Source of the DNA: an uncultured Oscillospiraceae bacterium
Lineage (GTDB): Bacteria > Bacillota > Clostridia > Oscillospirales > Ruminococcaceae
Assembly (NCBI GenBank): GCA_900547455.1
Contig: URGV01000023.1
Span: forward strand, 1-33,802
Length of the DNA stretch: 33,802 nt
Direction: 5' to 3'
The position numbers and the translations under genes were made by a program. Positions within the stretch are counted from its first letter, which is position 1. Each line of letters opens with the position of its first letter. Positions 10,050 to 31,768 of this stretch are shown piece after piece. A model generated the notes under the pieces. That model did no database searches. It had not been told where the DNA came from and saw only the letters and a program-made list of their open reading frames with translations.

Positions 10050-11435
10050 TTACCAGTATACTACATGGGAGTTTAACGGCTCATCTCCGCGCTCAATGAC
10101 CCAAGCCGCCAGCTGTTGGGCGGTGGTGTCGAGCAGGGCAAAGTCGAGGTTTTCTGCGGTGTCGCGGGTGGAGTTGAGCACAACGTTGGCCGCCGGGTCG
10201 TTTAAGCACACATCCTGAAAGAGCACCACCGCGCTCATCTTCTCCCCGTAGAAGGCTTTTTCATCTGCGCCCAAATCCCGGTCGGCGTACTGCAGCCCCA
10301 GCCCTCCGGCCAGGCTGTTGCGCAGATTGGCGTTTGCGCTGGTGCCGTAGACGGTCAGCGGGTGGCCCTGCCAGCCCAGGCACTTGAGGTTGAGCATCCG
10401 CAGCTGCTCGTAGCGGCCTTCCAGCTCATTGGCCAGCGCGGTGGAGCCGTTTTCGCGGTTGTCCTCAGTGTTGAAGGCCGCGAAAATGACGTCGCAGGGC
10501 AGCTCGTCGGCCTTAGCGAGCCACGCCGCCGTTTGCAGCATCGTCGCCACGCCCGAGGCGTTGTTGTAGGCGCCAGCCATCAGCAGCGGCCCGCACTGGC
10601 CCGCGCCGTCGAAGTTGGCACCCAGCAAAACCGCCTTTGTGCTGTCCCTGCCGGGCAGGTAGGCAACCGCGTTCTCCGCCGTGCCCAGCTCATCGACGGC
10701 GTCGGGCAGCCGCAGACGAATCTGATAGCCCGGCTGGTTGAGCTGCGCATAGACCTCCTCGCTGACCAGGATGCGGCTGGGGGTGCCCGTAGCATTGGTG
10801 TAGTTGGTGCCGTTGGCGACGTCGCCGCTTGTCAGACTGAGCCGGCGGGACGCGCCTTTCAGGTCAAGCTTGGCGTCCCAGATGCCCTTGCCCTCGTCGC
10901 AGAAGGCGTCATCGGTGGAGAGGGTAAGGGTGGCGTCCACCGGCTCCGGCGAGGCCCGGAAGGCCCAGTCCACACCCAGCTCAAGCGGCGCTTCACTGCC
11001 GTCCGGGGCGACCAGCCACGCCTCCCCGGGCAGCACCGCGGTGATGGAGGTCGGATAGCCCTGCTTCCAGCCGCCAAGCCCCGGCAGCTGCTGCAGCCCC
11101 AGCCGCTCAAACTCCGCCGCGATGTAGTCTGCGGCAGCGCGGTTGCCCTCACTGCCGCCGCTGCGGCCTTGATATTTGGGGTCGGTCAGCTCGCGGACGC
11201 AGGTTTCGGTGCTGCCCTCGACTGTGCCGCCGAGTGGCTGCACCGGGTCGATCCCGGTCGTCCAAAGAAGCTCGGCTTGGGTCTGGGCAGACGAGTACTT
11301 TTTGGGGGAATCCTTTGTTTCTTCAGCTGGCGTCTGTGCTGTGGAAGGGGGCGGCTGTTGGGAGGTATCCTGCGAGCAGGCGGTCATCGAGAGCGCAAGA
11401 GAAAACACCAGCAAAAGGCACCATATTTTTTTCAT
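10050..11435 (-). CDS. M28-fold lipoprotein with ablated zinc site (pseudo-peptidase)
   Basis: 461 residues from ATG 11435 (AGGAGGTG upstream). Signal peptide with lipid-anchor Cys20, a Pro/Thr-rich linker, then an M28-like domain with PKYQGRSGGSEGNRAAADYI (about 87-106) shared with the upstream paralogue. Every zinc position is changed relative to that neighbour: His to Asn274 (GANFDG), Asp to Asn291 (AYNNASG), second Glu to Asp325 (NTED), Asp to Lys351 (NLKCLG) and His to Asn421 (VLNSTRDT). The catalytic Glu (E324) remains but has no metal site. Both copies end alike (AWVIERG, YW). It cannot be a normal zinc peptidase; a surface binding or regulatory subunit is inferred. Last gene of the operon, 41 bp behind its paralogue. 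The frame is intact, so it appears maintained rather than decaying. Confidence 0.88.
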   Translation of the reverse strand: MKKIWCLLLVFSLALSMTACSQDTSQQPPPSTAQTPAEETKDSPKKYSSAQTQAELLWTTGIDPVQPLGGTVEGSTETCVRELTDPKYQGRSGGSEGNRAAADYIAAEFERLGLQQLPGLGGWKQGYPTSITAVLPGEAWLVAPDGSEAPLELGVDWAFRASPEPVDATLTLSTDDAFCDEGKGIWDAKLDLKGASRRLSLTSGDVANGTNYTNATGTPSRILVSEEVYAQLNQPGYQIRLRLPDAVDELGTAENAVAYLPGRDSTKAVLLGANFDGAGQCGPLLMAGAYNNASGVATMLQTAAWLAKADELPCDVIFAAFNTEDNRENGSTALANELEGRYEQLRMLNLKCLGWQGHPLTVYGTSANANLRNSLAGGLGLQYADRDLGADEKAFYGEKMSAVVLFQDVCLNDPAANVVLNSTRDTAENLDFALLDTTAQQLAAWVIERGDEPLNSHVVYW

Positions 11436-11476
11436 AAAGCACCTCCTAATTTTCGGATAGATGCGGTTTCGTTGTA

Positions 11477-12859
11477 TCACCAATAGACCGGGTAGCGCTG
11501 CTGGACATCGCTTCCGCGCTCGATGACCCACGCGGACAAATTCTTGGCCAGGGCATCCAGCGCTTGGGGGTCAAGATTTTCTGCGGTATCACGGGTGGTG
11601 TGGATGGGCGCTGCTGTGTCCCAGCTGTCCTGTGAAATGGTGACTGCCGGGACCCCGTTCTGCTGAAAGCTAACCTGGTCGCCGGGATAAACTTCGCTTA
11701 AAAAGGGGAGAGAAAGCCCCGCCGCCAGCTCGTTTCGCAAGGTGGCTTGCTCCGGCCCGCCGAATACGGTGAGCGGAGCCCCTTTGCATCCCAGGCTGTC
11801 GAGGTTGATCATAATCATCTGTTCGTATTGGTCGGCAAGCAGCTTGGAAAATGCCTGGGAGCCGTTCATTCCGATCTCCTCTGCGTTGAAGGTCGTGATG
11901 ATGACGTCGCAGGGCAGGGCGTCGGCTCCCGCGAGCCACGATGCTATCTGCAGCAGGGTGGCTACACCTGAAGCGTTGTCGTAGGCGCCGGGCATCACCG
12001 AACCGCACTGCCCGACCCCATCAAAGTGCGCTCCCAACACCACAGCCTTGGTGTGCTCCTCCCCGGGGAGCAGTCCAGCGACGTTGTCCGCCAGTCCCCA
12101 CTGGGCGGCAGCTGGCAGCTTTAGGTGCAGCTTGGCGCCGTCCTGTTTTAGCTTGGTGTAGATCTGCTCGGTGACCAGGATGCGGCTGGCGGAATCTTTG
12201 GGGTTAAAGTAGGGCATTCCGTCCGCGACATCGCCGCAGATGAGGTCGATGTACTGGCGCGGGGAATCCTGCTCGGTGACGTTGGCGTCCAAAAACGCCC
12301 TGCCGGCTTCGCAGTCGGCGGTCTCTTCGGAGAGCGGCAGCGTCAGATCGACCGCCTCATAAGAGGCGCGAAAGACCCAATCCTGCCCCAACACCAGCGC
12401 AGTCTGTGTGCCGTCGGCAGAGACAATCGCTGCCTCTCCCTCCTTGACCTCAAAGACAGGGGAGTAAAAAGGATGGCGGTAGCCCTGTAGATTTGGCAGC
12501 GGCTGCAGCCCAAGCTGGACAAGCTGCTCCTCGATATAGTCTGCGGCGGCGCGGTTGCCCTCACTGCCCACCACTCGGCCCTGATACTTTGGGTCGCTCA
12601 GTTCCAGCAAAAAGGTCTCGCTGGAAGTTTCCACTGTCCAGTCCGGCACAAAGGAAACCTTCGGCAGGTCGGTTACCCAGGTAAGGGAAGGCTCCTCTGC
12701 CGCCGGTTCATCGGGCTGTGTTTGCTCGGAGGATTCTCCTTTTGCAGGTGCCGTTTGTTGCTGTGCCGTATCGGGCGGCGACTGCTGCTTCGGTGTCTGG
12801 GCCGCTACACATCCGGACAAAAGCAGCAAGCTCAAGCATAGAGCCAGCGTCCGTTTCAT
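11477..12859 (-). CDS. M28-family zinc aminopeptidase-like lipoprotein
   Basis: 460 residues from ATG 12859 (GAGGGCAGG upstream, one base after the ATPase stop). Signal peptide with lipobox LSGC (Cys17), a Gln/Pro/Glu-rich linker (20-58), then the M28 domain with an inserted beta-rich segment (about 130-260). The binuclear zinc site is complete: His278 (GAHFDG), Asp294 (AYDNASG), catalytic Glu327 and ligand Glu328 (NAEEIG), Asp354 (NLDSLG) and His420 (PIHTTRDT). M28 enzymes remove N-terminal residues from peptides; the lipid anchor puts it on the outer face of the membrane. Co-transcribed with an ABC transporter, so it may trim or inactivate a peptide that the transporter handles. Substrate unknown. 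Confidence 0.92.
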   Translation of the reverse strand: MKRTLALCLSLLLLSGCVAAQTPKQQSPPDTAQQQTAPAKGESSEQTQPDEPAAEEPSLTWVTDLPKVSFVPDWTVETSSETFLLELSDPKYQGRVVGSEGNRAAADYIEEQLVQLGLQPLPNLQGYRHPFYSPVFEVKEGEAAIVSADGTQTALVLGQDWVFRASYEAVDLTLPLSEETADCEAGRAFLDANVTEQDSPRQYIDLICGDVADGMPYFNPKDSASRILVTEQIYTKLKQDGAKLHLKLPAAAQWGLADNVAGLLPGEEHTKAVVLGAHFDGVGQCGSVMPGAYDNASGVATLLQIASWLAGADALPCDVIITTFNAEEIGMNGSQAFSKLLADQYEQMIMINLDSLGCKGAPLTVFGGPEQATLRNELAAGLSLPFLSEVYPGDQVSFQQNGVPAVTISQDSWDTAAPIHTTRDTAENLDPQALDALAKNLSAWVIERGSDVQQRYPVYW

Positions 12860-12860
12860 C

Positions 12861-13532
12861 CTACCTGCCCTCCTCCAGTGCGCCGTCCTTTAGATGCAGG
12901 ACCTCGTCTGCCTTATCCGCGATGGCGAGGTCGTGGGTGACGACGATGATGCAGTAGCCTTCCTCGTGCGCCAGCCGCTGAAGCAGCAAAAAGACAATCT
13001 CACTGTTCTCGGTGTCCAGGTTGCCGGTCGGCTCATCCGCAAGGATGATGCGGGCGCTGGAAACCAGCGCTCGGGCAATCGCCACGCGCTGCTGCTCGCC
13101 GCCCGAGAGCATGGCGGGCAGGCGCTTGTAGTAGGAGCTGTTTAAACCCACATCCTTCAGCTTTTCGTGGGCGGTTTTCTTCGCCTCGTCCGCGGATACG
13201 CCCCGCAGCAGCATCGGGTAGGTCACATTTTCCTCCACCGTCAGCAGGGGGAAGAGGTTGTAGCTCTGGCAGATCAGCGAGATTGCCTTGAGGCGGTAGT
13301 CGTCCCGGTTGCGCTCCGCCGTGCTCTTGCCGTCGTAGAAAATCTGCCCTTCGGTCGGCAGGTCAAGGCCGGCCAGCAGCGACAAAAAGGTGGTCTTGCC
13401 GCAACCGCTTTTGCCCACGATGGCGTAGAATTTGCCATCCCCAAAATCAAAGTTGATGCCCTTCACAGCATGCACCTTCTGGTATTTGCTCTGATAAATG
13501 AAGTGCACATTTTGTGCCTGTAAAATGCCCAT
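12861..13532 (-). CDS. ABC transporter ATPase, LolD/MacB type
   Basis: 223 residues from ATG 13532, 4 nt after the permease stop, with an AAGGAG-type site. Walker [10 protein letters not shown] (40-48), Q-loop ICQSYNLFP (about 87-95), signature LSGGEQQ (142-148), Walker B IILADE (162-167) followed by PTGNLD and the H-loop VVTHD. The spacing and PTGNLD are typical of the MacB/LolD/FtsE branch, which energises FtsX-fold permeases by mechanotransmission rather than classic transport. It serves the two FtsX-type proteins encoded immediately upstream and is followed by the M28 lipoproteins. Confidence 0.95.
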
Positions 13533-13536
13533 AAAC

Positions 13537-14793
13537 TCACTCCTTATCCCGCAGAATATCCATCACATTGACACGAACGGTCAGCAGCACCGCCACAGCT
13601 GCGCCGACGCTATAGCACAGCAGAATGGCAGCGCAGATGCCGGGCCGAAAACCCTCCTGACCAATGATTCCCACTGCCGCCGCGCCCAGCAGCACGCCGC
13701 CAAGGCAGAGCACAAACTGTTCGAGCAGCGCCTTTAAAGTGATCTGCAGACGGCTTTCACCCAGCATCCGCATGACGGCGTATTCCGGTTTGCGTCCCCG
13801 CGCCAGCAGGAAGCTCAACAGGAAGCCGATGGCGGCAATCATCACAAAGAAAAACAGATAGGATCCTTCCAGCTGGGCGAGATTGCTCTCGATGGGACCG
13901 ACCGTCTCCTTCAGGATGCGGTCATCGATGCGGACGCGCACCAGTTTGTTGCTGCGAAGCCCCGACTCAGTGATCGCTGCCTTGATCTGGTCAAGCTGCT
14001 GGTTGTCCCGAACGGTGAAGTAAACCGCGTTGAGGCCAAAGTTCCATGCATAAGGGTTGCCCGCCTGTTTGTGAACAGCGGTGGCAGCGATGGTCAGGTC
14101 CTCCATCGTCTTCAGGGGCATGACGGCGGCGAACTTGGTTATTTTGCCCGGGTAGGTGCCGGCGACCTTCAGGTGAAAGATGCCCTCCAGCTGGGTTTTG
14201 CTGACAGGCACCCGCGCCAGCAGGGGAATGGTGTCCCCCGGGGCATAGCCCCATTTATCGGAGATGATGCAGATCCGCTCGTCGCCCTCCAGGCAGCTTT
14301 CGTCATAGCCCTCCAGCCAGCGGATGTCCTCCCGGATGCGCACCAGCTCGTCCTCGGCAGAAAAGGAGCTGCACGCCTTCATCGAGCCAGAAACGCCGCC
14401 ACTGTCCTCCTCTTCAAAGCTGGCGAGCAGGTTCTGGAATGCGATGAGTTTCTGCTGCTCCGATGCTCCTTCCCCGGCGCTTTCTTCCAGGATATCCTTG
14501 GGAAAGGTGCGGATGACGAAGGACGCGCTGCCATACAGCGAGCTGAAATAGCCGCTCTGCTGCATCTTCTCCCACATGCTGCCGGAAACTGCCGGGACGA
14601 TTTTGTCCTCGGAGAGGATGCTGCCGGTCACGGTGATGCTGCTGTAGGTTTCTTCCAGCCGCTTGCGGGTGTTGTCGATCAGGCTGGGGTAAAAGAGCAT
14701 GAACACCGTCGCCGCCATGGTGGAAACGACCACCAGCAAGCAGGCGGCCTTGCGGCGCCAGGCCATGTGCCAGAGATAAGAAAAAGCCTTCAC
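13537..14793 (-). CDS. FtsX/MacB-type ABC permease (shorter subunit)
   Basis: 418 residues from GTG 14793 with GAGGGGG upstream. Topology is FtsX-like: membrane span at about 16-39, extracytoplasmic domain of about 255 residues (40-298), then three spans (about 302-324, 345-372 and 378-405). The C-terminal core includes LLARGRKPEYAVMRMLGESRLQ, the conserved FtsX coupling segment. The ectodomain contains a Ser/Glu/Gly-rich stretch and no recognised motif. Lies between the larger permease (14-bp gap) and the ATPase (4-nt gap), so a heterodimeric transporter is likely. Substrate is not evident from sequence. Confidence 0.88.
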   Translation of the reverse strand: MKAFSYLWHMAWRRKAACLLVVVSTMAATVFMLFYPSLIDNTRKRLEETYSSITVTGSILSEDKIVPAVSGSMWEKMQQSGYFSSLYGSASFVIRTFPKDILEESAGEGASEQQKLIAFQNLLASFEEEDSGGVSGSMKACSSFSAEDELVRIREDIRWLEGYDESCLEGDERICIISDKWGYAPGDTIPLLARVPVSKTQLEGIFHLKVAGTYPGKITKFAAVMPLKTMEDLTIAATAVHKQAGNPYAWNFGLNAVYFTVRDNQQLDQIKAAITESGLRSNKLVRVRIDDRILKETVGPIESNLAQLEGSYLFFFVMIAAIGFLLSFLLARGRKPEYAVMRMLGESRLQITLKALLEQFVLCLGGVLLGAAAVGIIGQEGFRPGICAAILLCYSVGAAVAVLLTVRVNVMDILRDKE

Positions 14794-14807: not shown

Positions 14808-16805
14808 TTACTTATTCTTGGGAAGCAGTTCCCGCGGTTCCTTCTTTAGGTCCGGTGCGGCAAAGCCCAGCAGGAAGGCCGGGAAGAGCAGCACCGCGCC
14901 GCAGGCTTGCAGCGTTACCGGCAGGTCCGCCTTGATCCGGATGTTGGACTGCTGCTCTGTCAGGGCGGAAATGTCGTTGTCCTGGCTCATATCCATCTCG
15001 ATCTCCTTGATGTTCTCCTGCATGATACCGTTGCCTACAATGTATGCCATCCCGTAACCGGTCACCGCGCCGGCCGCCGCACCCAGAACGGTCAGCACCA
15101 TCGCACAGAGCAGGACTGCTGAAACTGCCTGCTTCTTCGTCCCGCCCAGCAGGCGGAAGATGCCCACCGTCTGCCGCTGGTTCTGCCAGAAGAAGTAGGC
15201 CGCCAGGATGCAAACCATCAAAAGGAGGATGGACGAGAGCAGGAGCAGCAGCTTGGCGGTGCTGTTCATCGACAACAGGCTGGATTTGACGGCGCTGTAG
15301 CCTTGGTCGTAGAAGGTAAAGTGCGGCGTGTACTGGTTTGGCTGCGGGGTGGTGAGGCCGTTGGCCTCCATGTTGTCGAGGAAGGCTTCCACCGAGCCGT
15401 TTTTGATTTTCACGCTGAAGGTGGAGCCATGGATCAGAACATCCTTCTGCTCCCGCGGCTTGGCGATGGAATTGGTTGGAACAAAGATGGTATGGGGCGA
15501 AAAGTCCAGCGTGTCCGGGGCAAGCTCGGCGTAACCGGTGTAGGGGTAGAGGGAGTAGATGCCCACGATCTCATATTCGCCCTCGCTGATAAACGGGGTT
15601 TCTTGCGCATCATAGATCGGCTGCTTCGGGACAAAGGGAGCGTTTGGGATGTAATCGCTTTCAAACAGCTGCATGTTCAGCTTGTCGCCGACCTTCCACT
15701 GCTGATTTTCGGCCACCTGCTCGCTGATGACGCAGACCTTTGCGCCGGACGCATATTCCTCCGGGGTGATAAGCCTGCCCTCACTGATCGCGGCGCTGCC
15801 AAGGTGAAAGGTCGGGACGGAGCTGAGGTCGTTGGTGGCGACGACGCTGTGGGTGTACTGCTGGACGTGGATGTCCTGCCAGAGATCCCCGAAGTAGGCT
15901 TTCAGCTTTGGGTCGTTCTGCACATCCTCCCAGCGCTGAATTGGGAACGGGGTATCGCCGGTTTCGTACTCCATTCCCTCTCTGCTTCCGTCATAGGTCA
16001 GCCGGAGATTCTGGTAGTCCTGTGCCGGTGTCGCGAAAGCAAAATTGTCGTCAATTCGGTCAGTAGAATACACCAGGGTGCCGTCCTCGGTCCACAGCCA
16101 GGGGCCGTGGGCTTGAAGAATCGCGATATACTCCACATCGGGGTAGAGGATCAGGCGGTCGGTGTCGTCGGTTTGGTTGAAGGCTTTGATGTCCTGCGCG
16201 TGCGCTTCCCACTCCTCTGGCTCAAATCCCAGGTCGGAATAGTACAGGGTTTCGGGATAGGCAAAGCAGCCGGCAGCGTCGTCGAGGACCTCCAGACCGA
16301 ACGGCAATGTCTGCGGATGATAGATGTCGTATGGATGATACTCCAGCTCGAACGGCTCCTTTGCCCGAATCCGAAAGCGGATGACATTGTTGCTTTGCAT
16401 ATACCATGCCGGGGTTTCTGTGCCATCGCCAGACACTTGAGGAGCGTACCCCATGACTGGACACGACTCGATGTAGGCGCCATACTGGCTGCGCAGGTCA
16501 TAGCTTTCCACCGCGTCGCTTTGGAGGATGGGGGCGATGTCGTACCCCTTTACCCCCACGGCCTGATAGCCGATGTGGGCGTCGCTGTTGCGTTCCACCA
16601 GCTCTCCGTATCGGTCCACCTCGCCATACAGCTCGGTGACAGCCAGGGTGGAGAAAGTGTTCTCGGAAAGCTGCAAATTGCTGGTGCTGTTGTAATACAG
16701 GTTCATGCTTGTGACAAAAAAGGTCGCTGCAATCAGCAGAAGCCAGAAATAAACAACTGTCTTTTTGCTGCGTTTTAACTGATCGATGAATATCTTTCGG
16801 TGCAT
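14808..16805 (-). CDS. FtsX/MacB-type ABC permease with large ectodomain
   Basis: 665 residues from ATG 16805, set by GGAGGTG and by the promoter at 16843-16871, which excludes the longer in-frame reading. One span (about 17-38), an extracytoplasmic region of about 470 residues (40-510), then three spans near 518-545, 560-590 and 625-650. The core segment TVGIFRLLGGTKKQAVSAVLLC is diagnostic for FtsX permeases. The ectodomain is rich in Tyr, Trp and acidic residues and resembles the MacB periplasmic domain only in placement. First gene of the five-gene operon; pairs with the 418-residue permease. Possible roles: export or extraction of a peptide, or signalling that an antimicrobial has been sensed. 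Confidence 0.88.
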   Translation of the reverse strand: MHRKIFIDQLKRSKKTVVYFWLLLIAATFFVTSMNLYYNSTSNLQLSENTFSTLAVTELYGEVDRYGELVERNSDAHIGYQAVGVKGYDIAPILQSDAVESYDLRSQYGAYIESCPVMGYAPQVSGDGTETPAWYMQSNNVIRFRIRAKEPFELEYHPYDIYHPQTLPFGLEVLDDAAGCFAYPETLYYSDLGFEPEEWEAHAQDIKAFNQTDDTDRLILYPDVEYIAILQAHGPWLWTEDGTLVYSTDRIDDNFAFATPAQDYQNLRLTYDGSREGMEYETGDTPFPIQRWEDVQNDPKLKAYFGDLWQDIHVQQYTHSVVATNDLSSVPTFHLGSAAISEGRLITPEEYASGAKVCVISEQVAENQQWKVGDKLNMQLFESDYIPNAPFVPKQPIYDAQETPFISEGEYEIVGIYSLYPYTGYAELAPDTLDFSPHTIFVPTNSIAKPREQKDVLIHGSTFSVKIKNGSVEAFLDNMEANGLTTPQPNQYTPHFTFYDQGYSAVKSSLLSMNSTAKLLLLLSSILLLMVCILAAYFFWQNQRQTVGIFRLLGGTKKQAVSAVLLCAMVLTVLGAAAGAVTGYGMAYIVGNGIMQENIKEIEMDMSQDNDISALTEQQSNIRIKADLPVTLQACGAVLLFPAFLLGFAAPDLKKEPRELLPKNK

Positions 16806-16842: not shown

Positions 16843-16871
16843 ATTTTACATCGACCACCATTTATGGTCAA
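16843..16871 (-). promoter_or_regulatory. Sigma-A promoter of the ABC/M28 operon
   Basis: Minus strand: TTGACC (16866-16871), 17-bp spacer ending in TG, TAAAAT (16843-16848). A TGTAGAAAA half-site lies just below the -10 (16833-16842), and the palindrome at 16883-16910 ends 12 bp above the -35. Confidence 0.75.
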
Positions 16872-17021: not shown

Positions 17022-17048
17022 CCCCCTCCCGCTGGATGCGAGAGGGGG
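17022..17048 (-). terminator. Terminator after the small secreted-protein gene
   Basis: On the minus strand a CCCCCTCTCGC arm, a 5-nt loop and a GCGGGAGGGGG arm, followed by TTTTGC. It closes the XRE-sigma-anti-sigma-secreted protein operon, 16 bp after the last stop. Confidence 0.85.
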
Positions 17049-17063
17049 GAATTTTCCTAATTG

Positions 17064-17489
17064 TTAGAAGGAGAAAATATCTTCCATGGAGTCTGTTTCT
17101 CCATCTGCATTGAAGTTAGCAACTGCTTTGTAGGTAACACCTGGTTCAAAGTCCCAATAAAGTCTTGCCAATAAAGCTGTAGAATAATCAGAAAACGATT
17201 TTTTTGCTAGAAAGGACCAGCCATTTCCCTTTTCCTGATATAACGTAATCGTTATTTGTAAGGAGCAATCTCTATCCGTTTCCAACATAGCTGCAACTTT
17301 TTCTTCCGTAGCATAAAGCTCAATACTAAATATTACATCATATAAAGGTTGAATCGATCCATCTTCACCTTGAAATTTTTCGTTAATTGGTTGCTCTACA
17401 TAAGTTTCTGCACTAGATGGCACGGATAAATTGGCGAAAATTAACAAGGCAACCAACATTGTTGATAATGCTTTCTTAAATTTTTTCAT
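17064..17489 (-). CDS. Small secreted protein of unknown function, AT-rich
   Basis: 141 residues from ATG 17489 (GAGGA 6 nt upstream). Clear signal peptide: basic MKKFKKALS, a hydrophobic core (about 10-21) and likely cleavage after SSA (about residue 27), leaving a mature domain of about 114 residues with predicted beta character. The mature part alternates hydrophobic strands (VIFSIELYA, LQITITLYQEK, TYKAVANFNADG) and ends in an acidic tail. No lipobox, no cysteine pair, no catalytic motif. I do not recognise the family with confidence; it may belong to a secreted DUF found near DUF4367 anti-sigma genes in Clostridia. G+C is far below the surroundings, and it lies 47 bp after the anti-sigma gene. 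Confidence 0.8.
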   Translation of the reverse strand: MKKFKKALSTMLVALLIFANLSVPSSAETYVEQPINEKFQGEDGSIQPLYDVIFSIELYATEEKVAAMLETDRDCSLQITITLYQEKGNGWSFLAKKSFSDYSTALLARLYWDFEPGVTYKAVANFNADGETDSMEDIFSF

Positions 17490-17536: not shown

Positions 17537-18253
17537 TTATCTTTCCAAAAGTTCTAGATTTCGAGCCATTCTGAAAATTTCTTTTTTATCTATATTTCCA
17601 TATATGCTTACTGATAAATTACCCATATCAAGATAGATTGCCTTTCTGCTTTCCATCTCTGCATAAAATCCTTGATGCCCATCTATTTTTATATTTTCCA
17701 CTTTTGAATTTTCTGTGTCTATCCTCTTCTGCTTTTCTGATAATATAGAACTCTGCGATATAAAAAAATATTGCTCTCCACTTTCAAACTTAATATAATA
17801 CAATTCTCTATCTGATATTTCTTCCGTCACCGTAAACCCTACAGGCAAATACTTCGGAAAATAAAAATAGTCCAAAGAGGACTCGTCCTCTTCCGACACA
17901 ATCTGGTTATAAACTTCTATCGAGGTGTAGCGCTCTTTCCTCAAAAAGATGGTCTCGTACACCGGGATGCCGTTGGCCTCTGCCCAAAAGCACAGCCCGC
18001 CGGACACCAGCCCTGTCATCAGAACAAACGAAGCGACCTTGCGCAGCGCCTTGCTCTTGAGGGTGTTCTTCACCGAATAGCGGAAATATTCCCTGCGCAG
18101 ATTCCGCAGGAACTTTTTGGAAGGGACATAATCGCTGGTGTCAATTTCTTCCAGCTCGCGATTTTTTTCCTTCACCTTTTCCTCTTCCAGCTGTGAAAGC
18201 GCTTCTTTCAGGAGTGCGTCAAAGATTTCATCGTTCAGCTTCGAATCACTCAC
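17537..18253 (-). CDS. Membrane anti-sigma-like protein with DUF4367-type ectodomain (composition mosaic)
   Basis: 238 residues from GTG 18253, which overlaps the sigma stop as GTGA, with GAGGATGG upstream. The acidic, Lys-rich cytosolic N-terminus (1-70, with EIFDALLKEALSQLEEEK) is where sigma binding would occur. One span follows (about 73-92), then an extracytoplasmic domain (95-238) with YFYFPKYLPVGFTV and INIDGHQGFY-like beta segments typical of DUF4367. Translational coupling to a sigma factor supports an anti-sigma role. By hand count 17581-17820 is 29% G+C while 17941-18060 is 58%: the ectodomain is AT-rich and the cytosolic/membrane part matches the genome. This suggests ectodomain replacement by recombination. 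No zinc-binding ZAS motif is present. Confidence 0.82.
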   Translation of the reverse strand: MSDSKLNDEIFDALLKEALSQLEEEKVKEKNRELEEIDTSDYVPSKKFLRNLRREYFRYSVKNTLKSKALRKVASFVLMTGLVSGGLCFWAEANGIPVYETIFLRKERYTSIEVYNQIVSEEDESSLDYFYFPKYLPVGFTVTEEISDRELYYIKFESGEQYFFISQSSILSEKQKRIDTENSKVENIKIDGHQGFYAEMESRKAIYLDMGNLSVSIYGNIDKKEIFRMARNLELLER

Positions 18254-18795
18254 CTGACACCATCCTCTGACTCGTGATATTTGTTCATAACCTTCTTGCG
18301 AATCCTGCTCAGACGAACCGACACATAGTTGGAGCTGATGCCCATCACATCCGCAATCTCCTGATTGCTCCACTCGTAAACCACTTTGTAGATCAGCATA
18401 TCCTGATCGTCCTGCGGCAGTTCCGAGAGAATTTCCTTGAGTATGCGAACCGATTCCTGTGCAGAAACCTGCTCCCATATCGGGTCATCCCCTGCCGTCA
18501 GCAGCTCGTTGCTGTCAAGCGCCACCTGCAGGATCCTGCTGTTTTTGTGCTTGGTATCGTACGCGATCCGCTCCAGGGTACAGAGCAGAAAGGCAACTCT
18601 TCTAGGCTCGTTGAGTTCCATAATTTTGTCCAGATTGTTGAGCGCACGGATAAAAGCTTCTTCCACCGCATCCTCCGCTAAATCATAGGAAAACAGGATT
18701 GTTCTAGCCTTGCAGACTAATTTTTTATAATGCTGCTTAAAAATAGTCGTGAACTTTTTTGACTCCTCGGCAGTGAAGGTCATGAAAAACAGCAA
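18250..18795 (-). CDS. RNA polymerase sigma factor, sigma-70/ECF family
   Basis: 181 residues from TTG 18795, which has GGGGAGG at 7-nt spacing and gives the N-terminus MLFFMTFTAEES usual for this Clostridial subgroup; ATG 18783 is too far from the site. Region 2 (about 14-80) has KARTILFSYDLAEDAVEEAFIRALNNLD. A linker with CTLERIAYDTKHK leads to region 4 (about 115-172), with LPQDDQDMLIYKVVYEWSNQEIADVMGISSNYVSVRLSRIRKKV, a clear helix-turn-helix for the -35 element. The XRE regulator ends 45 bp upstream and the anti-sigma starts in the overlap. Likely responds to an envelope signal through the anti-sigma ectodomain. Its target promoters are not identified. Confidence 0.92.
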   Translation of the reverse strand: MLFFMTFTAEESKKFTTIFKQHYKKLVCKARTILFSYDLAEDAVEEAFIRALNNLDKIMELNEPRRVAFLLCTLERIAYDTKHKNSRILQVALDSNELLTAGDDPIWEQVSAQESVRILKEILSELPQDDQDMLIYKVVYEWSNQEIADVMGISSNYVSVRLSRIRKKVMNKYHESEDGVR

Positions 18796-18840
18796 TGGAC
18801 ATCCTCCCCAGATCATTTTTGATTCGTACACAATCTGCCC

Positions 18841-26733: not shown

Positions 26734-29394
26734 CTATTCCCCATCCCTAAGTCTTTCCACAATCGTGTGGCGGGCGATGACCCGGTAGGTCAGCAGCGGG
26801 ATCAGCAGCCCCAGCAGTACAAAGACCGGCGCAATCAGCAGAACCGGCCAGACGGTAAAGCGGTAGCTGAAGAACCAGAACATCTGCTCGACGGCGCCGC
26901 CCAGCACCGGCGAGAGGATAAGGCTGAGCAGCAGCGAGAAAATGATCGACAGCAGGGTGTACAGCAGCCCTTCCAGCATCAGCATCGTCTTGAGCTGGCG
27001 GCCGGTCATGCCGATGGCCTGCAGCACCGCAAACTCCCGCTTGCGGGTGATGATGCCGGTGAGCACCGCGTTGACAAAGTTGAGCACGCCCACTAAACCC
27101 ACGATGAAGCTCAGCGCCCCGCCCAGCGTCAGGAACATTGAGCGCATCCCCTCAAACTCGGAGACATAGTCCTGCCTGCACTCGTAGTCGTAGGCGGTCT
27201 GGACGGTGGTGGTGTACTCCTCCAGAAAGTCCCGCATCTGCGCATCGGCCTCGTCGCTCTCCATGTTGAACAGGTAGGTCATCACGTCGCTGGTGCCGGT
27301 CTCCCGCTGGAAGTGGTCGGCGTCCAGAATAAACTGGTCAGCGCCGTAAAAGCGGTAGCCCTCGTTGCTCGGCACGGTGACGCAGGCGGCCACCTCATAG
27401 GTGACGTCGTGATAGGTTGTCGCGCGGACCTGGAGGCTGCCCTGATAGCTGTCCGCCTGCTCGGATGGGATCACCTGACCGGTCGTGGGGTCATAATATT
27501 CCAGCTCGTCGCCGTAGCGCAGCGTCACCTGGTCTCCCACATTCATCCAGTTGCTGTCCGGCTCGACGTTGTTGTAGTCGTCCATGGTGTAGACCGCGGC
27601 GATGTAGTTGCGGTCGGGGTCGCTCAATTTGGAAAGATCCCCCGCCACCACGTTGACCAGGCTCAGCGGGAATTCCTCCATGCCGTAGACCTGCACCCGG
27701 TTGGCGATCAGGCCCTCGGCGTTTTTGTCCGCCGTCGCGATCATGTCCTCCAGCACCTCCGGCGGGTACCATTTGCCCTCGCTGTCCCGGAAGTGCTGCT
27801 CGGTGACAAACTGCTGCAGCCAGCTGGTCTGCCCATAGATGCGCCCCGACTGGGCGATTCCGCCCTGCGCGTCGATGTCGGCGATCAGGTCCTCGGTGAC
27901 CGGCTCCTCGATGCCGTCCGACTGGAAGTATCCGGCACAGCCGAAGATGAAGTCGGACACCACCTTGTTCTGCAAATATTTGTCCATGTCAAAGCCGCCC
28001 GCAAACAGCGCCGTCACGTTGGTCAGCACCACCGCCAGCGAGAGGGAGAGCACCACCAGCAGCGTCTTGATGCGGCTGCGGCCGAGGTTTGCCCAGGCCA
28101 TCGAGAGAAGCGACGAACCCTTTCCACTCCCCGTTTTGGCCCTGCGGGGACCGGCGCTCACGTCGGTGTAGCGCACCGCCTCCACCGGGGAGACCCTGGC
28201 CGCCACCCTGCCCGGCTTGCGGCAGGAGAGCAGGACGGTGAACAGCGCAAACAGCGCCGCCCCGATGAAGATGAGGGGGCTGAAGCTGACAAAGGCATTT
28301 TTGTAGGTCAGCTGCTCCATGATGACGGGGGTCAGCTTGTTGCCGACCAAAAAGCCCAGCACCAGCCCGACGGGGATGCCGATGAGCGAGAGCAGCAGCG
28401 CCTGGCGGCGGATGATGCTCTTAAGCTGGCGGCCGGTGGTGCCGATGGTCTTGAGCAGGCCATAGAACTGGATGTCGTTGGTGACCGAAATCTGAAAGAC
28501 GTTGTAGATAATCAGATACCCGGTGAAGATGATGAGCAGCAACAGGGCGGAGATGGCGACGACGGTCAGAGGGTCAGCTTGAGCCCCCATCTGCGCAGCG
28601 GTGTAGCCCCAGTTGACGCCGCCGTCGATGTAGTTGTCCGCCTGGGGGTCGGTGTCCTGATAGCCGTGGTTTTCCAGCAGCTCTGTCAGGTCGCTCTCGA
28701 TGTGCAGCGAGCTTGCAAACATCACGTTCAGCGTCCACCGGCCGGTCATGTCGTATCTGCCCTGGTTCTGGTAGCCCTCCAGCGCCTCCTCGGCGCGGCT
28801 TTGTGGCAGCAGGATGTTGCTGGCGGTGACCGCCTCGTCGTACTCCCACCAGCCGGAGAGGGTGAAGGTCTGGGTGACTTGCTTCGGATTGCCGGTGCCG
28901 ACGCCGAGATTGTAGGTGACGGTGAACTGCTCGCCCACCTTCGGCTCGACACCCAGCAGCCCCAGCACCCGGGTATCGGTGGCGGCCTCGTCGGTGCCCT
29001 CCCGGGGCAGGCTGCCCTCGACCGGCACGCAGAAGTAGTGGGAAGCCAGCTGCGGCTCCATGTAGCTGACCTCGACGTGCGATTTGTTAAACGGCTCCTC
29101 CTCCGGCATCCCTAAAAAGAGGCGCGCGCCGCCTTCCTTCACCAGCGGGTCGGCGCGCAGCTGCTCCGCCTGCTCCCAGGTGATGTTTTTGATGCTGGCG
29201 TGCATGTCCCCGCCGGCCATGCGGAAATTTTCCTGCTGGAAGGAGTGGTTGATCGAGGCGGCGATGGTGAACAGCGAGGTGAACATCACCGTCGTCAAAG
29301 CGATGGCCAGCACCGCAATCAGGTTGCGGGTGCGCGCGGCGCGCAGCCCTTTGAGCGAAAGGTTGCGGATACAGGCTCGATTGGAAACTTTCAT
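26734..29394 (-). CDS. Large double-FtsX ABC permease
   Basis: 886 residues from ATG 29394 with GGGGG upstream. Two FtsX-like halves. The first has a span near 24-48, an ectodomain of about 225 residues and three spans between about 275 and 395. The second has a span near 435-458, an ectodomain of about 300 residues and three spans between about 765 and 880. Both halves contain the coupling signature ([22 protein letters not shown] and [22 protein letters not shown]), which shows internal duplication. Such permeases pair with one LolD/MacB-type ATPase, here 12 bp upstream. With a two-component system in front, the best model is a peptide-antibiotic sensing and resistance transporter of BceAB-like logic, but the architecture differs from BceB. 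Substrate is inference. Confidence 0.9.
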
Positions 29395-29406
29395 GCCGCC
29401 GCCCCC

Positions 29407-30075
29407 TTATCTTAAAACGATCCTGCCGTCCTCGATGCGGACGATGCGGTCGGCCAGCTGGGCAATCTCCTCGTTGTGGGTGATCATCACCATCGTCTGG
29501 GAGAATTTCTGCCCGGTCACCTTCATCAGGCTCAGCACGTCGTTGCTGGTGCGGGAGTCAAGGTTCCCGGTCGGCTCGTCGGCAAGCAGGATGGCGGGCT
29601 TGGTGGCAAGCGCCCGCGCGATGGCCACCCGCTGCTGCTGCCCGCCCGAAAGCTGGCTGGGCAAGCTCTGCAGCTTCTCCTTGAGCCCCAGCGCGCCGAT
29701 CACCTCATCGATGTAGGCGGCGTCCAGCTTGCCGCCGTCCAGCTGGATGGGCAGCACGATGTTCTCGTACACCGACAGCACCGGCACCAGGTTGTAGGCC
29801 TGAAAGACAAAGCCGATCTTGCGCCGGCGAAAGACGGTCAGCTCCTCGTCCTTGAGGGTGGAAAGGTCGCGCCCGTCCACCACGACGCTGCCCGAGGTGG
29901 GCCGGTCCAGCCCGCCCAGCATGTGCAGCAGGGTCGACTTGCCCGAGCCGGAGGTGCCGACGATGGCCACAAACTCCCCGTTCTCCACCTGCAGGTCCAC
30001 CCCGTCCAGCGCGCGCACCTGGGTGTCGCCTGAGCCGTAATATTTTTTGAGATCCTTTGTCTGTAAAATAATCAT
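29407..30075 (-). CDS. ABC transporter ATPase (LolD/MacB type)
   Basis: 222 residues from ATG 30075 with GGAGG 9 nt upstream. Walker [10 protein letters not shown] (40-48), Q-loop [10 protein letters not shown] (about 89-98), LSGGQQQ (142-148), Walker B ILLADE (162-167), PTGNLD and the H-loop MITHN. Belongs to the same branch as the ATPase at 12861-13532 but is not an especially close copy. Serves the double-FtsX permease. Preceded by three phased 11-bp repeats and a -10 element, so probably activated by the response regulator encoded upstream. Confidence 0.95.
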
Positions 30076-30124
30076 GCAGCATTTCCTCCATCGGTAACAG
30101 TTTTCCTCCTTAGAGGATGCCTTT

Positions 30125-30167
30125 ATTTTACCAGCACAATCTGTCGAGAATCTTTCCAGAATCTTTC
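30125..30167 (-). promoter_or_regulatory. Three 11-bp direct repeats and -10: response-regulator-activated promoter
   Basis: Plus-strand units CACAATCTGTC (30135-30145), GAGAATCTTTC (30146-30156) and CAGAATCTTTC (30157-30167) are head-to-tail without gaps. On the minus strand they end 4 bp above TAAAAT (30125-30130), where a -35 would be; no consensus -35 exists. This matches how PhoB/OmpR-type regulators replace the -35 contact. Transcript would start near 30118 and lead into the ATPase gene. Confidence 0.65.
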
Positions 30168-30181
30168 AGTGTTGAAAGATT
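30160..30181. repeat. Perfect inverted repeat downstream of the kinase gene
   Basis: 9-bp arms AATCTTTCA / TGAAAGATT (30160-30168 and 30173-30181) with a GTGT loop, 14 bp past the kinase stop. It shares its left arm with the third direct repeat, so it may be another regulator contact; there is no T-tract for termination. Confidence 0.55.
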
Positions 30182-30195
30182 TGTATGCGACAGCT

Positions 30196-31098
30196 TTATC
30201 CGCGCGGCAGATAGAGCGAGAAGGTGCTGCCCTGCCCCGGGCGGGAACTGAGCTTGAGGTAGCCGCCCTGCTTCTGCGCAATCTCCCGGGCAAGGTAGAG
30301 CCCGATGCCAAGCCCCTCCTGCTCCCGCACCTGCCGCCCGCGGTAGAAGCGGCCGAAAATCTGCGCCTGCTCCTCCTCGGCCACACCGATGCCGTCGTCG
30401 CGAACATCGATGCGGCAGAACAGCTCGTACTGCGTGACACTCACCTGGATGCACCCGCCCGGCGGGGTGTATTTGACCGCGTTGTCCAACAGGTTCCCCA
30501 GCGCCTCCGCCGTCCAGCGCAGGTCGTAGAGCGCCTTCATTTCCGCCTGCTGCTGCAAATGCAGCTGAAGCGCAATCCCCTTCTGCTCTGCCGCCGCCTT
30601 TGCCTGCGAGGCTGCCCGCTCCAGCAGCGGGGAGAGCGGCTGGGATTTTGGCGTGACGGCCAGCACATCGGTCTCCAGCCGGGAGAGCTTGACCAGGGTT
30701 TCAATCAAAAAGCTGAGCTTCTCGCTCTGCTGGAAGATGACCTGTGCCTGCTCGCGCTGCCGGGGCGTCAGCTCCTCCTCCATCAGCAGCGAGGAGTAGA
30801 GCCTGAGGTTTGCAAGTGGAGTCTTGGTCTGATGGGAGATGTCCGAGAGCAGGCGCTGGATGCTCTCCCGCTGCCGCTGCACCCCGCGCAGCGAGCGGGC
30901 GCTGCCGTTTAAAAAGCGGGCCATCCGGCTTTCCAGCGCGGAGGGCGCCGACTCGTCAAAGCTCTCCTCCCCAAAGCCGCCGTCGATGGCGGTGGAGAGC
31001 ATCCGGTCCAGCCGCCGCACCGTCCGGCGGGCGTCCAGCCAGAGCCAGAGGCCCAGCAGCAAGCCTGCCAGCCCCAGCACACCCAGAAAAATCCCCAT
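30196..31098 (-). CDS. Sensor histidine kinase with one N-terminal span and no sensor domain
   Basis: 300 residues from ATG 31098, which follows the regulator stop by 1 nt (TGAGATG) with GGAGGTG upstream. A single hydrophobic segment (about 3-21) is followed at once by cytosolic sequence. HisKA has phosphoacceptor His89 in SDISHQTKTPLANLRLY. HATPase_c has the N-box NLLDNAVKYT, G1 DDGIGV and G2 GLGIGLYLAREI near the end. There is no extracytoplasmic sensing loop, so the signal probably comes through a partner, as in kinases that read the state of an ABC transporter. The adjacent double-FtsX permease is the natural candidate. Confidence 0.93.
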   Translation of the reverse strand: MGIFLGVLGLAGLLLGLWLWLDARRTVRRLDRMLSTAIDGGFGEESFDESAPSALESRMARFLNGSARSLRGVQRQRESIQRLLSDISHQTKTPLANLRLYSSLLMEEELTPRQREQAQVIFQQSEKLSFLIETLVKLSRLETDVLAVTPKSQPLSPLLERAASQAKAAAEQKGIALQLHLQQQAEMKALYDLRWTAEALGNLLDNAVKYTPPGGCIQVSVTQYELFCRIDVRDDGIGVAEEEQAQIFGRFYRGRQVREQEGLGIGLYLAREIAQKQGGYLKLSSRPGQGSTFSLYLPRG

Positions 31099-31099
31099 C

Positions 31100-31768
31100 T
31101 CAGCGCACCTCCCAGGTGTACCCCAAGCCGTACACCGTCTTGATCGGCGCGTCAGTCAGCTTGTCCCGCAGCCGCTTTACCGCCACCGAAAGGGCGTTTT
31201 CGTCCACAAATTCGCCGCCGTCCCACACCTTTTCCAGCAGCTGCTCGCGGGTCAGGGTGTGGCCGCGGTTTTCGGTCAGCAGCCGCAGCAGGCGCTGCTC
31301 GGTGCGGGAGAGCTCGACCGGCACCCCATCGCGGAAAAACTGCATCCGCGCAAAGTCAAAGACAAACGGCGGGTCGGTGAAGGCGGCCTGTGGCCGGGCG
31401 CGGCGGCGCAGCAGGTTGCTCACCCTTGCGCGCAGCACCGCCAGCGAAAAGGGCTTGGTGACATAGTCGTCCGCCCCTAAGGTGAGCCCCGCCACCTCGT
31501 CGCTTTCCAGGTCGTTGGCGGTGAGGATCAGCACCGGTACCTCGCTGCGCTGCCGCAGCCATCGAAGAAAGTCCAGCCCGTTGCCGTCCGGGAGGTTTAG
31601 GTCCAGCACCACCAGGTCAAAGCTCTGCTGCTCCCACCTGCTTTTTCCCTCCTGCAAATCCCGCGCCAGCGCGACGATTCGCCCCGGCTCGGTCAGCGCC
31701 ACCGCCACCCCGCGGCCCAGCGCGCTGTCGTCCTCGATCAAAAGAATCTGCTGTTCCATCCGTCGCAT
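31100..31768 (-). CDS. OmpR/PhoB-family response regulator
   Basis: 222 residues from ATG 31768 (AAAGGA upstream; ATG 31759 is possible). Receiver domain (about 5-118): acidic pocket IEDD (Asp13-Asp14), phosphoacceptor Asp56 in VVLDLNLPDGNG, Thr84 in ILTAND, and Lys105 in VTKPF. The winged-helix trans_reg_C domain (about 135-222) has LSRTEQRLLRLLTENRGHTLTREQLLEKVWDGGEFVDENALSVAVKRLRDKL and YGLGYTWEV. Regulators of this class bind tandem 10-11 bp repeats as dimers, consistent with the site at 30135-30167. Co-transcribed with the kinase. Confidence 0.95.
   Translation of the reverse strand: MRRMEQQILLIEDDSALGRGVAVALTEPGRIVALARDLQEGKSRWEQQSFDLVVLDLNLPDGNGLDFLRWLRQRSEVPVLILTANDLESDEVAGLTLGADDYVTKPFSLAVLRARVSNLLRRRARPQAAFTDPPFVFDFARMQFFRDGVPVELSRTEQRLLRLLTENRGHTLTREQLLEKVWDGGEFVDENALSVAVKRLRDKLTDAPIKTVYGLGYTWEVR

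Follow-up and report, generated by a model that had tools for sequence, protein, structure and literature searches.

A conserved M28-fold lipoprotein with replaced zinc ligands beside its intact paralogue in a putative ABC operon of an uncultured Oscillospiraceae bacterium

RESULTS

Copy B has lost the zinc site that copy A retains

In a 33 802-nucleotide stretch of contig URGV01000023.1 (assembly GCA_900547455.1) from an uncultured Oscillospiraceae bacterium, hereafter the window, two adjoining minus-strand genes encode lipoproteins of the M28 peptidase family: copy A, an intact aminopeptidase-like protein (11477..12859, 460 aa), and copy B, in which the zinc ligands are replaced (10050..11435, 461 aa). 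The zinc-less twin is real and conserved, its site pattern (Asn, Asn, Asp, Lys, Asn) being fixed and kept by its orthologues, and copy B is very likely a pseudo-enzyme. As a whole, the best explanation is probably that B is a conserved pseudo-enzyme in which a lysine stands in for zinc and which serves as a non-catalytic, membrane-anchored partner.

A sequence-only reading of this region had described the genes as tandem M28 paralogues, and both open reading frames (ORFs) were recovered where it had placed them. The products were 47.8% identical across 454 aligned residues and had in common the blocks PKYQGR, GSEGNRAAADYI, TRDTAENLD and AWVIERG and the YW end. Copy A matched Pfam M28 (PF04389) at 111.8 bits and copy B at 51.5 bits, against a gathering cut-off of 21.3; copy A also had sequence matches to aminopeptidases in the PDB, while copy B by sequence alone retrieved zero PDB chains at E 0.001. 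We set the M28 zinc columns by aligning A to solved aminopeptidases, including the Vibrio/Aeromonas structure 3b3t, with the function of each 3b3t site residue presumed, and the columns named in the sequence-only reading coincided with them. The ligand set with the base glutamate was complete in A (HDEEDH; H278, D294, E327, E328, D354 and H420) and incomplete in B (NNEDKN).

A codon map reproduced exactly the residues that had been proposed for B. On the minus strand, Asn274 (AAC, 10614..10616) replaces His278 of A (CAC), Asn291 (AAC, 10563..10565) replaces Asp294 (GAC), Lys351 (AAG, 10383..10385) replaces the zinc ligand Asp354 (GAC) and Asn421 (AAC, 10173..10175) replaces His420 (CAC). In the Glu324-Asp325 pair (10461..10466), Glu324 (GAG) corresponds to the base Glu327 of A (GAG) and Asp325 (GAC) replaces Glu328 (GAG). 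The changes from His or Asp to Asn take one base each and that from GAC to the lysine codon AAG takes two. Loss of the site was incomplete, for B retained the base glutamate and Asp280, which is Asp276 in B and lies two residues past the ligand histidine.

The gene is otherwise in order, as had also been claimed. Its longest frame begins at GTG 11531, and the likely start is ATG 11435, with AGGAGG upstream and the signal MKKIWCLLL; by reading, the lipobox is ..LSGC17 in A and ..MTAC20 in B, with the cysteine invariant in 23 of the 23 aligned B-clade rows. An M28 aminopeptidase fold was predicted with confidence for B, and the matches listed for residues 62-457 of the lipoprotein were M28-fold proteins. 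The AlphaFold2 model of A had a mean predicted local distance difference test score of 85.9 and a predicted template modelling score of 0.83. Recent gene conversion between the two window copies was considered and rejected: 4-fold sites were equal at 59 of 131 positions, and no 40-codon block exceeded 76% DNA identity.

The replaced site is fixed in orthologues of copy B

Homologue searches, in each of which about 8000 candidates were scored, gave 120 proteins with B as query and 445 with A (best 120 of the 445 used). Among the 146 proteins collected, 61 carried the exact B pattern NNEDKN and 48 the active HDEEDH, and an alignment of 124 rows of 380-500 aa held 44 active and 80 inactive sequences. 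Dozens of homologues show this same replacement, so the difference between A and B goes beyond chance. We then selected orthologues of B on identity computed outside the site columns, obtaining 69 rows, 68 of them full length, with near-copies and window B included. Lysine stood at column 354, the position of Lys351, in 69/69 of this site-blind set, and an intact ligand set in 0/69, so that the orthologues with intact ligands that would have spoken against a pseudo-enzyme were absent from it. Among the 68 full-length orthologues, Lys354, Asp280 and Asp424 were each present in 68, Asn294 in 67, Asn278 in 66 (Asp in the other two) and Asn420 in 60; Glu327 was found in 65, with one further Asp, and Asp328 in 64.

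The lysine-type sequences formed a clade of 68 rows with a Shimodaira-Hasegawa-like approximate likelihood ratio test support of 100 in the full tree, which was built with the site columns in from 112 rows of 400-500 aa (P0060, P0075, P0119 and P0120 left out). With the site columns out, all 18 of the 18 sampled rows still grouped together in the C-terminal tree, again with a support of 100.

Protein comparisons suggest constraint on copy B in genomes that appear to hold the pair

Three further genomes appeared to hold the same enzyme and pseudo-enzyme pair. They were identified from an identical size of the longest contig among 40 A and 71 B proteins (fragments, fusions and odd dead rows left out), which gave 3 matches against 0.27 expected (p ~0.002). 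With the window this made four genomes and six comparisons, which are non-independent. In five of the six, B copies were more similar to each other than A copies were (61-69% versus 44-54% identity; 63-72% versus 44-51% in the catalytic domain), the individual values for B-B and A-A being 65.7/52.3, 69.2/54.3, 61.4/43.9, 62.4/45.0 and 62.8/44.1%. Because the replaced site is conserved in orthologues and B-B identity exceeds A-A identity in five of six comparisons, gene decay is rejected; on this protein-level comparison B appears to be under constraint, and the relaxed selection that would have indicated simple decay was not borne out.

Several observations weigh against this picture. The sixth comparison was reversed (B-B 67.5 versus A-A 76.9%), with the catalytic domains tied at 77.7/77.3%. 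Orthology among the A copies may be mixed, A comprising several lineages and B one tight clade, which could inflate the B-B excess, and the genomes were paired by longest-contig size with the contigs themselves unseen. The metagenome-assembled genome (MAG) G001 holds A and only a broken relic of a B-type gene (L085, G001:C29:2218-2352; at about 1.0 kb in L001), which contains a TAG and an apparent internal deletion and lies ~5 kb upstream of the operon. The operon at L002 carries A alone, and in genome G002 a lysine-type copy terminates its own operon with no adjoining A. Frameshifts in sister strains had been named as a sign of decay, and this point holds in part: given the degenerate relic in G001, the twin can be lost.

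The same data bear on the strongest rival, in which B binds no ligand itself but is a regulatory subunit that pairs with A and controls where or how actively A works; dimerisation occurs among M28-fold proteins, the transferrin receptor being one example. A and B adjoin on one strand, three further contigs appear to carry a pair of this kind, and the dead catalytic domain was far better conserved than the live one in five of the six comparisons. However, the lysine-type copy of G002 sits in its own operon with no A next to it, although another contig of that genome carries an active copy. We regard a purely regulatory subunit as unlikely, if still a serious competitor.

A lysine may have taken the place of zinc more than once

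Outside the core clade, lysine was also found at column 354 in the dead sequences P0092, P0105, P0081, L084 and P0147, and arginine in P0117. P0092 clustered with the active P0096/L001. Of the 51 core-diagnostic columns it shared just 4, and three of these were the site changes N, N and K. Joining P0092 to the core clade was rejected by approximately unbiased (AU) tests, with p-AU of 0.0003 for the C-terminal half (48 chosen rows) and 0.005 for the central block of residues 276-428 (44 of those rows, four long ones out), both tests having been named only after the first tree. Given this rejection and the few diagnostic columns in common, the Asp-to-Lys swap probably arose at least twice. Alternatively, tiny conversion tracts may have moved these codons, or an active neighbour may have overwritten the remainder; the site would have been kept apart regardless.

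Of the 80 dead sequences, 76 had lysine or arginine at column 354, and every one of these 76 retained an acid at column 278, 327 or 328. Summed over the six site positions, net charge increased from -4 to a value of -1 to +1 in 77 of the 80. The A/B chimera P0060 and near-copies are part of these tallies, which refer to sequences, not events. The Glu-Asp loop is shortened in P0069, P0071 and P0065: the first two have Asp at column 278, and P0065 keeps Asn there and has Asp at column 327. Because the carriers of Lys or Arg keep an acid and the charge of the site rises, a lysine-acid pair has probably replaced the zinc ions.

This step has its own difficulties. P0134, P0137 and P0139 are dead with no basic residue at column 354 (Glu in P0134 and P0139, Ser in P0137), and in P0134 all six site columns lack one. 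The lysines found in P0105 and L084 could go back to the same origin as those of the core (p-AU 0.5 and 0.12-0.49), and the position of Lys351 within the pocket is inferred from sequence. Among side observations, the distant M28 relative P0159 has the site letters N-A-K-E-N-R, if the alignment holds, and basic replacement may thus be wider than the B subfamily.

The conserved site might instead belong to an enzyme of new chemistry that works without metal through Lys351, the retained Glu324 and the adjacent Cys352. Over the 68 orthologues, Lys was invariant, Glu or Asp was found at column 327 in 66 and the next cysteine was present in 68. However, that cysteine is nearly invariant in active relatives as well, and Lys354 stays though the Glu is deleted in P0069 and replaced by Lys in P0071, which would hardly be allowed for a catalytic pair, making this reading highly improbable. 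A weak or altered metallo-enzyme, in which Glu324, Asp325 and Asp276, all kept, still bind one metal, is also very doubtful, since both His ligands and both ligand Asp are gone and one of the latter is now Lys. Least credible of all is an early-stage pseudogene with its frame still open, a reading that the stop and apparent deletion of the G001 relic would favour but that runs against 68 full-length orthologues with the same replaced site, the higher B-B identity in five of six comparisons and the retained ribosome-binding site and lipobox cysteine.

Some relatives carry signs of exchange between the two types. No difference separates P0092 from the active P0096 over residues 60-250, and their last block is 93% identical, but they differ in the site-bearing centre; P0105/P0124 show a milder form of this sharing. 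Conversion or chimeric assembly is likely in these relatives, and in P0092/P0096, unless an assembly artefact is involved, the N-terminal part would be common with the two sites held apart. P0060, with 49 member sequences, is A-type to residue ~300-340 and B-type thereafter (by block, 92-100% identical to window A in the N-terminal part and 88-100% to window B in the C-terminal part), as expected of either unequal crossing-over of the tandem genes or a chimeric assembly.

The M28 genes are linked to an ABC operon

Copies A and B look like the last two genes of a five-gene minus-strand run forming one operon. The run comprises a MacB_PCD/FtsX-like large permease (14808..16805; PF12704 and PF02687), with GAGGAGG ahead of the likely start ATG 16805 and a listed ORF that extends to TTG 16871, a small FtsX-like permease (13537..14793; PF02687 at 26.9 bits) and an ABC ATPase of LolD or lactococcin-972-exporter type (12861..13532; ABC_tran), followed by A and B. 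The ATPase was 86-87% identical to those of L001 and L002, and under the NCBIfam cut-offs its best two matches fell short (LolD 205.7 of 307.75 bits, L_ocin_972_ABC 186.3 of 254.85 bits). The small permease had the same neighbour in L001, L002, L102 and L103. Within the large permease ORF, ARAGORN called a tRNA-Ser(gct) on the same strand (15095-15181), which is probably a false positive.

M28 genes are truly linked to this ABC operon, which recurs with a single M28 gene at L001, from a Clostridia MAG, at L002, from an Oscillospiraceae MAG (genome G002), and on another contig of G002 (L084/L102; L102 = G002:C62), where the last gene is a dead lysine-type M28. The sequence-only reading had proposed that B serves an ABC system as a surface binding subunit; of this claim the operon linkage stood, and the binding-subunit role is conjectural. 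An importer-type binding subunit was not supported by the permeases, which are FtsX and MacB_PCD; no importer permease family was among the Pfam matches of the two at E 0.001. ABC systems of the LolD/MacB-FtsX-like class export or transmit force, and are not known to rely on solute-binding lipoproteins in the manner of importers. With permeases of this kind, B is better explained as a peptide receptor, a decoy or an enzyme partner.

The surroundings of the operon varied among relatives. At L102 it sits after MobL relaxase, DUF3991/Toprim and TraG-like genes, and may travel on a conjugative element. In G004 it runs to the contig end, with a GHKL kinase and a LytTR regulator ahead of it. L001 and L084 are followed by a small protein whose signal peptide was recognised by eye and by an opposite-strand TPR regulator. 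The RNPP_C match of this regulator exceeds the cut-off of 26.5 bits in L084 (42.8 bits) and falls below it in L001 (22.8 bits), where an HTH_3 domain is also present. Such peptide-signalling-type regulators beside some relatives' operons at most hint at secreted peptides.

Scans with the B-clade alignment gave 0 loci in genomes, a scan of viral contigs gave 0 loci and a plasmid scan gave two Paraclostridium records at 22% coverage. With the active alignment, only L001-L003 were close among the best 80 of 124 relatives. Searches of relatives matched 3 of 198 genomes (G001, G002 and the distant G143), an order-level search matched 5 of 394, three of them distant, and a search with the large permease matched 7 of 198, with G001, G002 and G004 close.

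Ahead of the operon, consensus scans gave a promoter-like site, TTGACC-17-TAAAAT (16843..16871, minus strand, 10/12 matches; no proof of function), and a terminator-like hairpin between orf17064 and the operon (17022..17048, minus strand, 11 pairs, 9 of them GC, with a T tail). Further upstream, Pfam identified a DUF4367 protein and an extracytoplasmic function (ECF)-type sigma factor as possible regulators (17537..18831, minus strand); a DUF4367 and ECF-like sigma pair is also upstream of the L002 operon, the sigma factors matching by BLASTP at 28.6%. A SpoIVB-type peptidase gene comes next after copy B on the opposite strand.

Two other features of the window were observed. The gene at 17064-17489 (minus strand) encodes a small protein of 141 aa with a signal peptide by eye, a GC content of 0.352 against 0.57-0.64 in the operon and no Pfam or NCBIfam match; it is possibly an acquired gene or a secreted partner. 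At 26734-31768 (minus strand), the ORF list reads as a second large permease-like ORF (886 aa) alongside an ABC ATPase, a histidine kinase and a response regulator, which presumably resemble an ordinary stress-response ABC module.

DISCUSSION

We propose that B descends from an ancient duplication of the peptidase encoded in the operon and has been kept as a conserved M28-fold pseudo-enzyme. To judge from the residues retained, Lys351 would stand in for the positive charge of both zinc ions and be held by the acids at 324 and 325, and the lysine-acid pair would keep the pocket of B folded and metal-free. Lipid-tethered to the outside of the membrane near the ABC complex, B could then bind the peptide of A, or pair with A, with no cutting. 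Together with the LolD/MacB-FtsX-like ABC complex, it might handle a secreted peptide for sensing, for shielding from A or for protection of the cell. The peptide binding of B and its joint work with the ABC complex are more weakly inferred than the substitution of lysine for zinc, and we put forward a receptor or decoy role only tentatively. More speculative is the generalization to a bacterial M28 pseudo-enzyme family in which a repeated lysine-for-zinc salt bridge yields non-cutting peptide receptors or decoys, accompanied by an ABC system, peptide-signalling regulators and a live enzyme for the same peptide.

A literature search with few terms, from which subscription papers were mostly outside, returned no bacterial M28 pseudo-enzyme and no paper on the operon. 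A conserved bacterial clade beside a live paralogue would offer a simple system for studying the conversion of a metallo-enzyme into a binding protein, and could show whether lysine-for-zinc replacement is a repeatable route.

Among known systems, BSAP/YwaD, the Aneurinibacillus aminopeptidase and PaAP are zinc M28 aminopeptidases, whereas B lacks the ligands. The ATPase and the FtsX/MacB-type permeases of the window operon resemble LolCDE, lactococcin-972-type and MacB-type ABC systems, although the ATPase scores under the cut-offs of the named families and the LolCDE, lactococcin-972 and MacB systems are not known to end in the genes of an M28 enzyme and its dead twin. Nicastrin of gamma-secretase has an aminopeptidase-like fold without zinc catalysis and differs from B as a subunit of a eukaryotic membrane complex. 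Transferrin receptors are described as non-catalytic M28-fold receptors of animals (PMC10794815). Like transferrin receptors 1 and 2, which are M28B-related and non-enzymatic, B has lost catalysis, yet it is not filed with them. The receptors belong to animals, carry extra domains, bind another ligand and do not come in an operon alongside an enzyme or an ABC system.

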